From Pseudoglutamicibacter albus (lineage in GTDB: Bacteria; Actinomycetota; Actinomycetes; Actinomycetales; Micrococcaceae): 64,000 nt of DNA. The position numbers and the translations under genes were made by a program. The stretch spans positions 1 to 64,000 of the forward strand of contig NZ_JAKRCW010000010.1 in the NCBI RefSeq assembly GCF_022346425.1, given 5' to 3'. Positions within the stretch are counted from its first letter, which is position 1; each line of letters starts with the position of its first letter. The notes under the pieces are model-generated. The model ran no database searches. It was given only the letters and a program-made list of their open reading frames with translations, and was not told the DNA's origin. This document shows, piece by piece, positions 8,837-22,866 of the stretch.

Positions 8837-9308
8837 CCCTGTAACTACGCGGTTAAATCCGAATATTTTGTAGTTATCCGCAAGAAATGTGCAAAGAGCT
8901 GTGGATAACTGTGGGTGACATGCCTTTCGCTTCGCATAGTCCTAGCTCACTCTTATATGCTTCACAGTGATGGGAATAATGCGTTAGAGTTCTCCACACT
9001 TTATCCACACTCAGTGGATAGCTGAATCATGCGGATCTGACGGGTTTTACACAAACTCCACAACGGTTACTACTCCTCCCACCTTTAAACATCTATCCAA
9101 ATTACATTTTGTGATTCGACCGGCCCCGGCTCGAACTACACGCCCCTACAGGCTGATTTCTAAATCTCAGTGAACAAGTTATTTGAACCAGGTAGGCTAA
9201 ACACGTGCCCTGTGTGACTTTTGAGCACAAGAGTGAATAAGGTCTTACTCTTGTGCTTGAATCTCATGCGCACCGAAAGCCTCGTATTTCGCATCGGAAG
9301 GTGAATCT
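8837..9308. other. oriC: Probable oriC (dnaA-dnaN intergenic region)
   Basis: 472-bp gap with DnaA boxes TTATCCGCA (8873-8881), TTATCCACA on the minus strand (8899-8907), TTCTCCACA (8990-8998) and TTATCCACA (9001-9009). An AT-rich stretch at about 9082-9115 (TTTAAACATC...AATTACATTTTG) could be the unwinding element. The left side of the gap is transcribed leftward and the right side rightward, and by eye the plus strand changes from C/A-rich to G/T-rich around dnaA, both consistent with bidirectional replication starting here. The number of strong boxes is low for an actinobacterial oriC. Confidence 0.7.
9224..9257 (+). promoter_or_regulatory. Inverted repeat in the dnaN leader
   Basis: Perfect 11-bp arms AGCACAAGAGT / ACTCTTGTGCT with a 12-nt loop, 51 bp upstream of the dnaN start. 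No T-run follows, so it is unlikely to be a terminator; it could be an mRNA leader hairpin or a protein-binding dyad. Confidence 0.5.
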
Positions 9309-20510: not shown

Positions 20511-20545
20511 AGGTGCCCCGGTGCTGTAACAGCGCCGGGGCACCT
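20511..20545 (+). terminator. Terminator after ppiA
   Basis: 11-bp arms AGGTGCCCCGG / CCGGGGCACCT, beginning 14 bp after the stop, with further pairing in the loop and TGCCTTT after the stem. Confidence 0.8.
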
Positions 20546-20593
20546 GCCTTTAAGGGCTCTCACCATGGAGACATCAAACGAACGGGGATATCA

Positions 20594-21340
20594 ATGAGGA
20601 ATCTGCTGGTGCGTTACCCGGGAACAATCATCATCACTGTGGTCTTGGTGGCGTTCTATATCGTCCAGCTTGTGGTGGAAAGCTTCACCGAGGACATGTT
20701 GATCCGCGGGGTCTACGTTAACGAGCAACCGTGGCGTCTATTGAGTTCAGGGTTTGTCCACAGCACCGAGTTCCTGCCTTCAGCGCACCTACTGAGTAAC
20801 CTGCTGATGCTGTGGTACGTGGGGCTGCTGCTCGAACGGATCCTAGGCACAATCCGGTTTATAGCAGTCTTCCTCGTAGGCGTTGTGGGAGGAAGTGCCG
20901 CGGTCGTATTGCTAACAAGCCCCATCGACGGGGCGCTGGGTGCCTCCGGCGGGATCTTCGCCCTGTGCACTTCCCTACTCATGGTCCTGCGTAAAGGAGC
21001 AACCACGGCGTTCGCAAGCCTCTCGACCGTTGTGGTCATCATGTTTCTCCAGGGGCTGTTCATGCCAGGAGTTTCGTGGGAAGGCCACCTCGGCGGAGCA
21101 ATCACAGGTATCGTGCTGGGCGCGACCGCACGCTTCCAGCCCTATGTTCTTGAACGTGTAAGCGACCTCTTCGATGTGACAGAAGGAATCAAACCCTCCG
21201 TGTCGCGGCAGAAGATCGTGACGGAAGTACCGCGCCGCATTGCAGAAGTTGCGATCTATGCCGGAGTGGTTGCCCTCGCCGTATGGCTGAGCACGAGCCA
21301 CGTAACATCAACGCTCACGAAATACGGCATCACACCGTGA
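20594..21340 (+). CDS. Rhomboid-family intramembrane serine protease
   Basis: 248-aa polytopic membrane protein of the rhomboid family, which cleave transmembrane substrates. The catalytic serine motif GASGGIFA lies near residues 115-122 and the catalytic histidine is in GHLGGAITG near 163-171; the N-terminal WR motif is present as QPWRLLSSGFVHS, followed by a conserved HLLSNLLMLWYVG. About six membrane segments. I use ATG 20594 (GGGGA upstream) instead of an upstream in-frame start that would run through the ppiA terminator. Rhomboids beside ppiA near the origin are common in actinobacteria. The substrate is unknown. Confidence 0.9.
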   Translation: MRNLLVRYPGTIIITVVLVAFYIVQLVVESFTEDMLIRGVYVNEQPWRLLSSGFVHSTEFLPSAHLLSNLLMLWYVGLLLERILGTIRFIAVFLVGVVGGSAAVVLLTSPIDGALGASGGIFALCTSLLMVLRKGATTAFASLSTVVVIMFLQGLFMPGVSWEGHLGGAITGIVLGATARFQPYVLERVSDLFDVTEGIKPSVSRQKIVTEVPRRIAEVAIYAGVVALAVWLSTSHVTSTLTKYGITP

Positions 21341-21486
21341 TGTGCAACACCGTGACGTACAACATTGCGAGCTAAGCCTTGTGAGCCTGACCTAGGGCAG
21401 AGGACTGACCCTGACCTCTGCTCCTGATGGCGACCCCTGCACCAGATGGCGACCCCTGTCCCTCATCCTGACTGACCTCTAGCCTA

Positions 21487-21511
21487 GACGCCGCGTAAAG
21501 CACGCGGCGTC
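21487..21511 (+). terminator. Terminator-like hairpin before the DnaA-box cluster
   Basis: Perfect 10-bp arms GACGCCGCGT / ACGCGGCGTC with a 5-nt loop followed by TTTAC, 146 bp after the rhomboid stop. Between the stop and this hairpin is a short direct repeat GATGGCGACCCCTG (21426-21439 and 21445-21458). Confidence 0.7.
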
Positions 21512-21516
21512 TTTAC

Positions 21517-21949
21517 TTATCCACAGTGGTTCTCCACAGTGTGGACAAGAACACAACGGTGTAATTCGAATAAGGGACAAATATTCGAAGAAAAACTGTG
21601 CTAACTATAACCTAGGCCAAGATCCAGCTTAAAGATTACTTAAAGCAAGCACTAGCGAAGATGTGTTCGAACGTTTTCCCACTTTTTATCCCCACCTGTG
21701 GATAACTTTGTGCACGGGTGTTGACAGAATCTTGGAATTCTCGTAAATTTTCGCCACCTGCCGTTATCTTCATGTTTATCCACAGTCGTTTTCCACAGTG
21801 TGGAGAACTTACACCGTTGTGATTTATGAAAGATCTTTCAGATCTTAAGATACGGGGATGACTGTGATTCCGGGGATCCGGACATCTTTCTGTGCATAGA
21901 CTGTGAGAATATTTCGCAATCCACACACTTTATCCCCACCTGTGGATAA
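21517..21949. other. Second dense DnaA-box cluster (origin-like or DnaA-titrating locus)
   Basis: In a 793-bp gene-free region (21341-22133) I count four exact TTATCCACA boxes (21517-21525 plus; 21697-21705 minus; 21776-21784 plus; 21941-21949 minus), two TTATCCCCA (21686-21694, 21930-21938) and near-consensus boxes TTCTCCACA (21530-21538; 21799-21807 minus), TTGTCCACA (21540-21548 minus) and TTTTCCACA (21789-21797). The intervening DNA is AT-rich and carries an 8-bp inverted repeat TTCGAATA/TATTCGAA (21565-21572/21582-21589) and a 14-bp palindrome TGAAAGATCTTTCA (21827-21840). This is denser than either gap beside dnaA, about 13 kb away. Function is inferred. Confidence 0.8.
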
Positions 21950-21951
21950 CT
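21685..21951. repeat. Two copies of a 23-bp head-to-head DnaA-box module
   Basis: An identical 23-bp sequence occurs at 21685-21707 and 21929-21951. Each copy contains TTATCCCCA, a 2-bp spacer, and TGTGGATAA, that is, two DnaA boxes facing each other. The copies are 244 bp apart, in the same orientation. Confidence 0.9.
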
Positions 21952-22133: not shown

Positions 22134-22451
22134 ATGGCGTGGGTTGTATTGATCGTGTCCGGGCTCTTCGAAGCCGTGTGGGCCACGGCCCTCGGCAAAT
22201 CCGAGAGGTTCACTAAGCTGTGGCCCACGGTCATCTTCTTCATCACCGCAGCAATCTCGATGGGCGGACTCGCATGGGCCATGAAAACCCTGCCAACCGG
22301 TTCGGCTTACGCCATCTGGGTCTCTATAGGAGCCTCCGCGGCCGTCGCCTACGGGATGATCACCGGTGACGAAAACTTCAGCATCATCAAAGTGCTTCTC
22401 CTGTTAGGGATGATCGCGTGCGTGATTGGGCTCAAACTCGTATCGAGCTGA
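22134..22451 (+). CDS. sugE: SugE/Gdx-type small multidrug resistance transporter
   Basis: 105-aa, four-helix SMR protein. The first helix has the essential glutamate in LIVSGLFEAVWATALG (Glu13), and the second-third region reads WAMKTLPTGSAYAIWVSIGA, which resembles the Gdx guanidinium-exporter subtype rather than the EmrE subtype. It probably works as a proton-coupled antiporter, as an antiparallel dimer. It stands alone directly downstream of the DnaA-box cluster. The region 5' of the gene was examined for a guanidine riboswitch without a convincing match. Confidence 0.9.
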   Translation: MAWVVLIVSGLFEAVWATALGKSERFTKLWPTVIFFITAAISMGGLAWAMKTLPTGSAYAIWVSIGASAAVAYGMITGDENFSIIKVLLLLGMIACVIGLKLVSS

Positions 22452-22548: not shown

Positions 22549-22866
22549 CTATTCTCGCCAGCCGAACATCATGATGAAGCCGATCATGGAGATACCGAAG
22601 CCAATCAGAATGTTCCAGTTACCGATCTTCGGGATCGGCAACTCGACACCGACCATGTGGGCAACATAGAACGTCACGATCCACACCAGACCGAGAATCA
22701 TGAAGCCAAACATGATGGCCTTATATACAGGAGAAACAGGCTGGAACTCGCTGGCCTCACGGCGCTGACGACGAGTCAGCTCCTGCTGCTTGATCGCAGC
22801 GTTACGTGCAGCAGGGTTCCCGATCTTCTTCGGATTAGAAGATGCGCGCTTGGAAGATTCAGACAC
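22549..22866 (-). CDS. crgA: Cell-division protein CrgA
   Basis: 105-aa membrane protein with a basic cytoplasmic N-terminus (about 45 residues) and two membrane helices (about 50-70 and 85-102, the second ending FIMMFGWRE). The family is confined to actinobacteria; CrgA joins the divisome, contacting FtsZ, FtsQ and FtsI in mycobacteria, and inhibits FtsZ-ring formation in Streptomyces. Its place beside the sortase and the pkn cluster is conserved. Confidence 0.93.
   Translation of the reverse strand: MSESSKRASSNPKKIGNPAARNAAIKQQELTRRQRREASEFQPVSPVYKAIMFGFMILGLVWIVTFYVAHMVGVELPIPKIGNWNILIGFGISMIGFIMMFGWRE

Follow-up and report, generated by a model that had tools for sequence, protein, structure and literature searches.

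Only for Escherichia coli and its relatives is there a good understanding of how DnaA is controlled at sites away from the origin. In the 64,000-nucleotide stretch of Pseudoglutamicibacter albus DNA analysed here (the window), a dense cluster of DnaA boxes lies between a rhomboid gene and a sugE-like gene, 13 kb from dnaA, and raises the question of what so many boxes do away from the origin. Below, we set out the anatomy of the locus, its relation to the replication origin and its conservation. Together these make it likely, in our judgement, that the locus descends from early Actinomycetota and forms a DnaA nucleoprotein complex outside the origin by which DnaA is regulated.

Anatomy of the array and its relation to the origin

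Ten sites with at most one mismatch to TTATCCACA fall within 433 bp (21517-21949) of the rhomboid-sugE gap. The cluster named in the original prediction is real and consists of four exact boxes, two TTATCCCCA boxes and four other near-consensus boxes with one mismatch. Beyond that earlier description, the boxes form an exact tandem of two modules, A-B-A-B, with a conserved dyad after each copy of A (Table 1). Module A (~50 bp) comprises two direct boxes and one inverted box, TTATCCACA-N4-TTNTCCACA-N1-TGTGGANAA, followed by the dyad TTACA-N4-TGTAA, and module B comprises two facing boxes, TTATCCCCA-CC-TGTGGATAA. The two copies are 91% identical for module A (21517-21548 and 21776-21807) and 93% identical for module B (21680-21707 and 21924-21951). 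An Rfam search at the array locus returned no family, and so no known RNA.

Table 1. Coordinates of the array, its modules and neighbouring features, and of the dnaA-dnaN gap, in window positions
Feature	Position	Strand	Remarks
dnaA-dnaN gap	8837..9308	+	likely oriC; 4 boxes, arrangement unlike the array
Rhomboid gene	20513..21340	+	PF01694; gene preceding the array throughout the family
Terminator-like hairpin, intrinsic type	21486..21512	+	11 pairs; consensus match; 4 bp before the array
Module A, copy 1	21516..21567	+	boxes 21517-21525 (+, exact TTATCCACA), 21530-21538 (+, near-consensus), 21540-21548 (-, near-consensus); R1 E 2.3e-11
Dyad of module A, copy 1	21549-21567		GAACACAACGGTGTAATTC
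Module B, copy 1	21684..21708	+	facing boxes 21686-21694 (+, TTATCCCCA), 21697-21705 (-, exact TTATCCACA); 2-bp gap
Module A, copy 2	21775..21826	+	boxes 21776-21784 (+, exact TTATCCACA), 21789-21797 (+, near-consensus), 21799-21807 (-, near-consensus); R1 E 8.0e-13
Dyad of module A, copy 2	21808-21825		CTTACACCGTTGTGATTT
Module B, copy 2	21928..21951	+	facing boxes 21930-21938 (+, TTATCCCCA), 21941-21949 (-, exact TTATCCACA)
sugE-like SMR transporter gene	22134..22451	+	between the array and crgA
crgA	22549..22866	-	PF06781; convergent with rhomboid; neighbours the element phylum-wide

The usual gene order in the family is cyclophilin, rhomboid, the array, sugE where present, crgA, sortase, trpG and pknB, and in most genomes rhomboid (+) and crgA (-) converge around the element. 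The sugE-like insertion occurs in this genus and a few others and lies outside the conserved unit. Judging from its sequence, the hairpin just before the array would end the rhomboid transcript, and a similar hairpin precedes the array in two further genomes (G001 and G002).

We compared the box content of the locus with chance expectation and with the rest of the genome. The window holds 31 boxes with at most one mismatch against 7.2 expected from dinucleotide shuffling. The 793-bp gap has ten, against a mean of 0.18 and a maximum of 3 in 3000 trials with a first-order Markov model built on its sequence. Only 25 exact boxes occur in the 2.22-Mb genome, four of them in the array. Full-length module A was searched with model R1, a sequence-only model of 30 sequences, among them those of the window and some from mycobacteria-like genomes; its E-values are rough, having been obtained with a shortened calibration. 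The module has just two copies genome-wide, both in the array, of which copy 2 is the best match. The module B pattern, allowing up to three mismatches, likewise occurs twice in the genome and only here. A genome-wide check for equal clusters, based on exact sites, model R1 and the B pattern, thus leaves modules A and B unique to this locus. The array DNA had been called AT-rich; it is so only mildly, with 49% G+C versus 58% in the window. After the array, the densest group of boxes seen in this genome (L028 5230-5505; G000:C2:55229-55505), with three exact boxes and six with at most one mismatch, lies directly upstream of dnaB, a gene recognised by reading its sequence rather than by family search.

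Could the array be an alternative or second replication origin? It contains more boxes than the dnaA-dnaN gap, and the lowest G+C over 60 bp is similar in the two gaps (0.33 and 0.35, respectively). Boxes with at most one mismatch are indeed few on either side of dnaA, three in the upstream gap and four in the dnaA-dnaN gap, where about four each had been claimed. In a complete genome of the same species (G079), however, the GC-skew minimum (2063211) lies 2.6 kb upstream of dnaA (2065789) and 17 kb from the cluster (2080052), with the change-point at dnaA and without a GC-skew minimum at the array, such as an oriC should have. The box grammar also differs, as dnaA-dnaN gaps use '--12' and '++9' spacing unlike that of the arrays, and no module A was found in the dnaA-dnaN gaps of 45 genomes. 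In mycobacteria, moreover, oriC is a DnaA peak separate from the Rv0010c-Rv0011c site considered below (PMC7738170). The skew bears out the placement of the true origin beside dnaA and, because it puts the origin there, makes a second origin at the array extremely unlikely. Of the original prediction, an auxiliary DnaA site away from the origin gains support from the uniqueness of the modules and their conservation beyond the genus, while the suggested role as an alternative origin gains none from GC skew; the locus is very probably an ancient DnaA control site instead.

Conservation within the family and across Actinomycetota

Of 64 loci sampled across the Micrococcaceae, 61 carry four or more boxes in the 1.3 kb 3' of the rhomboid match, and the array persists without sugE as well as in two genomes where crgA has moved (G102 and G120). 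Named loci of Arthrobacter and Kocuria identify the family as Micrococcaceae. The complete A-B-A-B order is found in 13 of the 64. Alignments within the genus are 88% identical over the modules and 60% over the spacers, and nearly all gaps fall in the latter. Box spacing in the family is strict, at 13 bp for direct pairs (61 cases), 10 or 11 bp for facing pairs (29 and 43) and 23 bp for the outer pair (28).

In the window and in family loci, an A module and the B cluster after it are near 99, 110-113, 131, 144, 155 and 166 bp apart. These distances follow a period of 11.1 bp (p about 0.009 over 19 distinct values, uncorrected for relatedness), which is suggestive of helical phasing, as if the modules needed the same face of the helix; we give this no weight in what follows. 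A relative of a different genus (G004:C9; L032 7819-8324) has a further array of nine boxes, A modules included, between superoxide dismutase-like and MarR regulator-like genes. Neither dnaA nor rhomboid lies on that part of the contig, and the array is possibly a transposed or duplicated copy. In G014:C13 (L034-L035), an insertion of ~20 kb separates rhomboid and crgA, and box groups at 77.0-77.4 kb and at 90.3-90.4 kb, the second ~13 kb after the first, would be in keeping with an array that was split or copied. Seven boxes also follow rhomboid in G106 (L092), even though its array is ~331 kb away from dnaA, which makes this genome a natural experiment on the effect of origin distance.

Conservation in relatives, one of the checks set for the original prediction, extends far outside the genus. 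At 29 loci from a search of the phylum with the CrgA protein (PF06781), the 400 bp 3' of crgA hold 57 boxes and the remaining 81 kb hold 13, a 31-fold enrichment, with at least one box 3' of crgA in 24 of the 29. The CrgA alignment is too divergent for scanning the collection, and loci in named taxa were located via cyclophilin. A box cluster lies between rhomboid and crgA in 16 Streptomyces loci (crgA undetected in one), where its arrangement differs from the module A type, and also in Corynebacterium, Dietzia, Sciscionella, Brevibacterium, Actinomyces and Microbacteriaceae. No cluster was found at the cyclophilin locus of Bifidobacterium, Mumia or Micromonospora, at one Propionibacteriaceae locus, or at cyclophilin loci outside the actinobacteria.

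The module itself can be followed by sequence. A profile HMM of module A built from Micrococcaceae only finds the full-length module, dyad included, at the same place in Corynebacterium (5.9e-13), Brevibacterium (3.3e-12) and Dietzia (1.3e-11), and in genomes classed as mycobacteria-like from gene order and protein similarity (E 2.3e-9 to 2.5e-5); R1 reaches E about 1e-12 in the latter. Across 198 whole genomes of the class, R1 has a match at E<=0.1 in 189. Among its best 29 loci outside the window (L250-L278; 25 outside the training set and four from training genomes), 26 adjoin crgA and three directly follow rhomboid. For 38 genomes of other classes, the best match falls no more than 400 bp from the 3' end of crgA in 16 of 18 cases at E<1e-4, and in all 13 at E<1e-6 (four training, nine non-training). 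In 46 complete or near-complete genomes, the median distance between the element and dnaA is about 15 kb. It is within 60 kb in 43 of them, the exceptions being 63, 109 and 331 kb; six distances that wrap the origin were computed with rounded genome sizes. At four loci of one family (f68: L251, L253, L262 and L271, about 1490-1600), in a crgA-rhomboid context, boxes flank the dyad on both sides and the element is nearly palindromic about it.

The array in the window belongs to this crgA-linked type by position, at the crgA 3' end (with sugE inserted here) and near the origin, and by its box-box-box-dyad sequence, in both copies of A. On these sequence comparisons, the element is actinobacteria-wide, occurring in most actinobacteria examined, and specially expanded in this family. 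One short element thereby marks, phylum-wide, the likely place of off-origin DnaA control in actinobacteria.

The mycobacterial site beside crgA

In mycobacteria, crgA is the gene Rv0011c. Hicks et al. 2020 reported five DnaA regions in Mycobacterium tuberculosis and M. smegmatis, namely oriC, rpmH-dnaA, the region upstream of dnaB, Rv3843c-RVnc0040 and Rv0010c-Rv0011c, with binding at the last established in vitro and in vivo by IDAP-seq, EMSA and ChIP-seq (PMC7738170). Variants of this site have a cell-length phenotype resembling that of dnaA mutants, which the authors liken to hypomorphs and which retained a normal initiation rate (PMC7738170). For other species, the authors saw 'no obvious correspondence', and they considered titration and nucleotide exchange as roles of the site without deciding between them (PMC7738170). 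Our analysis supplies that correspondence. The original prediction, which knew of no described equivalent at this place in actinobacteria, was wrong on this point, as the Rv0010c-Rv0011c site of M. tuberculosis and M. smegmatis lies at the same place.

By place and sequence, the array is the ortholog of this site. Common to both are the crgA 3' end, proximity to the origin, a match to R1 (on the mycobacterial side, in mycobacteria-like genomes) and a palindrome beside the boxes. They differ in that the mycobacterial site has about three boxes, without module B or the tandem duplication, where the array has ten in A-B-A-B order, and is flanked by Rv0010c where the array is flanked by rhomboid. 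Hicks et al. also describe a palindrome that is mutated recurrently; it lies 65 bp upstream of Rv0010c and has GAATC as IS6110 target (PMC7738170). The dyad of a mycobacteria-like genome (L269) contains GAATC as well, and 66 bp separate its beginning from the start of the Rv0010c-like gene. Because both the distance and the motif agree, the palindrome is probably the dyad of module A. The cluster upstream of dnaB in the present genome parallels another of the mycobacterial regions (PMC7738170), so that box clusters occur here at four of the five. With homologs in Corynebacterium, Streptomyces and Arthrobacter, the function of the mycobacterial site becomes testable without a pathogen.

These data also bear on two roles outside the regulation of DnaA. 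As a transcriptional operator, the array would let DnaA control sugE, rhomboid or crgA; sugE starts 183 bp after it, and the mycobacterial element is upstream of the Rv0010c gene. Yet rhomboid and crgA converge in most genomes, so that no promoter is expected between them, sugE is missing from the locus in most genera, the terminator-like hairpin closes rhomboid before the array, and expression of Rv0010c and Rv0011c was unchanged in dnaA mutants (PMC7738170), all of which makes an operator highly unlikely. A structural or segregation anchor that is built on DnaA close to the origin, and tied to division via the crgA-pknB cluster, would be in keeping with the cell-length phenotype in mycobacteria (PMC7738170) and with a linkage to crgA that persists across classes. 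In G102 and G120, however, the array has stayed with rhomboid, so that the crgA linkage is not strict, and we regard an anchor as unlikely.

Regulation of DnaA and comparison with known sites

With origin and operator roles set aside, regulation of DnaA itself remains. We propose that two DnaA molecules would bind head-to-tail on the direct boxes of module A while a third faces the second. The dyad would be occupied by another protein, acting as a dimer, or by a pair of weakly bound DnaA molecules; a further DNA-binding factor is a prediction for this part of the element. The resulting complex could alter the availability or nucleotide state of DnaA and help to couple initiation to growth and division. 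The Micrococcaceae would have enlarged the module A core into arrays, here of ten boxes in A-B-A-B order.

The simplest rival is a passive titration locus, for which the early datA model, Streptomyces D78 and the DnaA-box clusters of Bacillus subtilis served as models. Its boxes would soak up DnaA and, being doubled early, lower free DnaA against re-initiation. Ten boxes, four of them exact, near oriC, and the amplification of the array in one family agree with a sink, as do clusters in Streptomyces coelicolor (Smulczyk-Krawczyszyn et al. 2006) and B. subtilis (Okumura et al. 2012) that repress untimely initiation (as cited in PMC5742627). Proximity to dnaA fits an early-doubling sink too, although it may be no more than a result of the element's linkage to crgA. 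Against titration, a sink requires neither fixed spacing and orientation nor a dyad, yet both are conserved across the phylum; only about three boxes are kept in mycobacteria; and the mycobacterial variants resemble hypomorph-like dnaA mutants rather than showing the over-initiation expected on loss of a sink (PMC7738170). This resemblance points slightly more to a positive function having been lost than to a lost sink. We hold titration to be possible, with the balance against it. Since a passive sink needs neither fixed geometry nor a co-conserved dyad, we favour an active complex, performing DARS-like exchange or datA-like hydrolysis, over simple titration.

As a sub-case of such an active complex, the element may be an actinobacterial DARS, at which ADP-DnaA molecules would face each other on boxes 2 and 3, drop ADP and leave ready for ATP. 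The cores of E. coli DARS1 and DARS2, read on the reverse strand, have three boxes in the same direct-direct-facing order as module A, with accessory sites, and are non-coding; here, too, an accessory site adjoins the boxes. Facing DnaA molecules at DARS shed ADP (PMC8682772), and in mycobacteria site variants resemble dnaA mutants, with nucleotide exchange among the options raised by the authors (PMC7738170). The spacing, however, is 12/14 bp in DARS versus 13/10 bp in module A here (12-13/10-11 bp in the family), and the gap between facing boxes is 5 bp in DARS but 1-2 bp in the array. Accessory sites are of another kind, DARS lie far from oriC, and there is no sequence homology. Because the facing-box gap differs, the resemblance is one of likeness rather than membership, and we entertain a DARS role only tentatively. 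Box order and the mycobacterial phenotype would lean weakly towards a DARS-like over a datA-like complex; between reactivation on the one hand and titration or inactivation on the other, we see about equal chances. A more far-reaching version, which we offer as conjecture and consider doubtful, is that all these loci derive from one ancestral crgA-linked DnaA-regulating complex, a DARS equivalent that evolved independently, whose dyad binds a dimeric partner, and of which the natural M. tuberculosis variants that are under selection and the A-B-A-B array here represent two regulator states.

The array also resembles E. coli datA, an off-origin DnaA-box cluster with conserved spacing that restrains initiation. 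datA differs in having four boxes over about 250 bp by sequence scan, in being IHF-dependent and in lacking the direct-direct-facing triplet. The clusters of S. coelicolor carry the cosmid-derived names H69, H24 and D78, and crgA of that species lies on cosmid H69; the H69 cluster may be the rhomboid-crgA locus.
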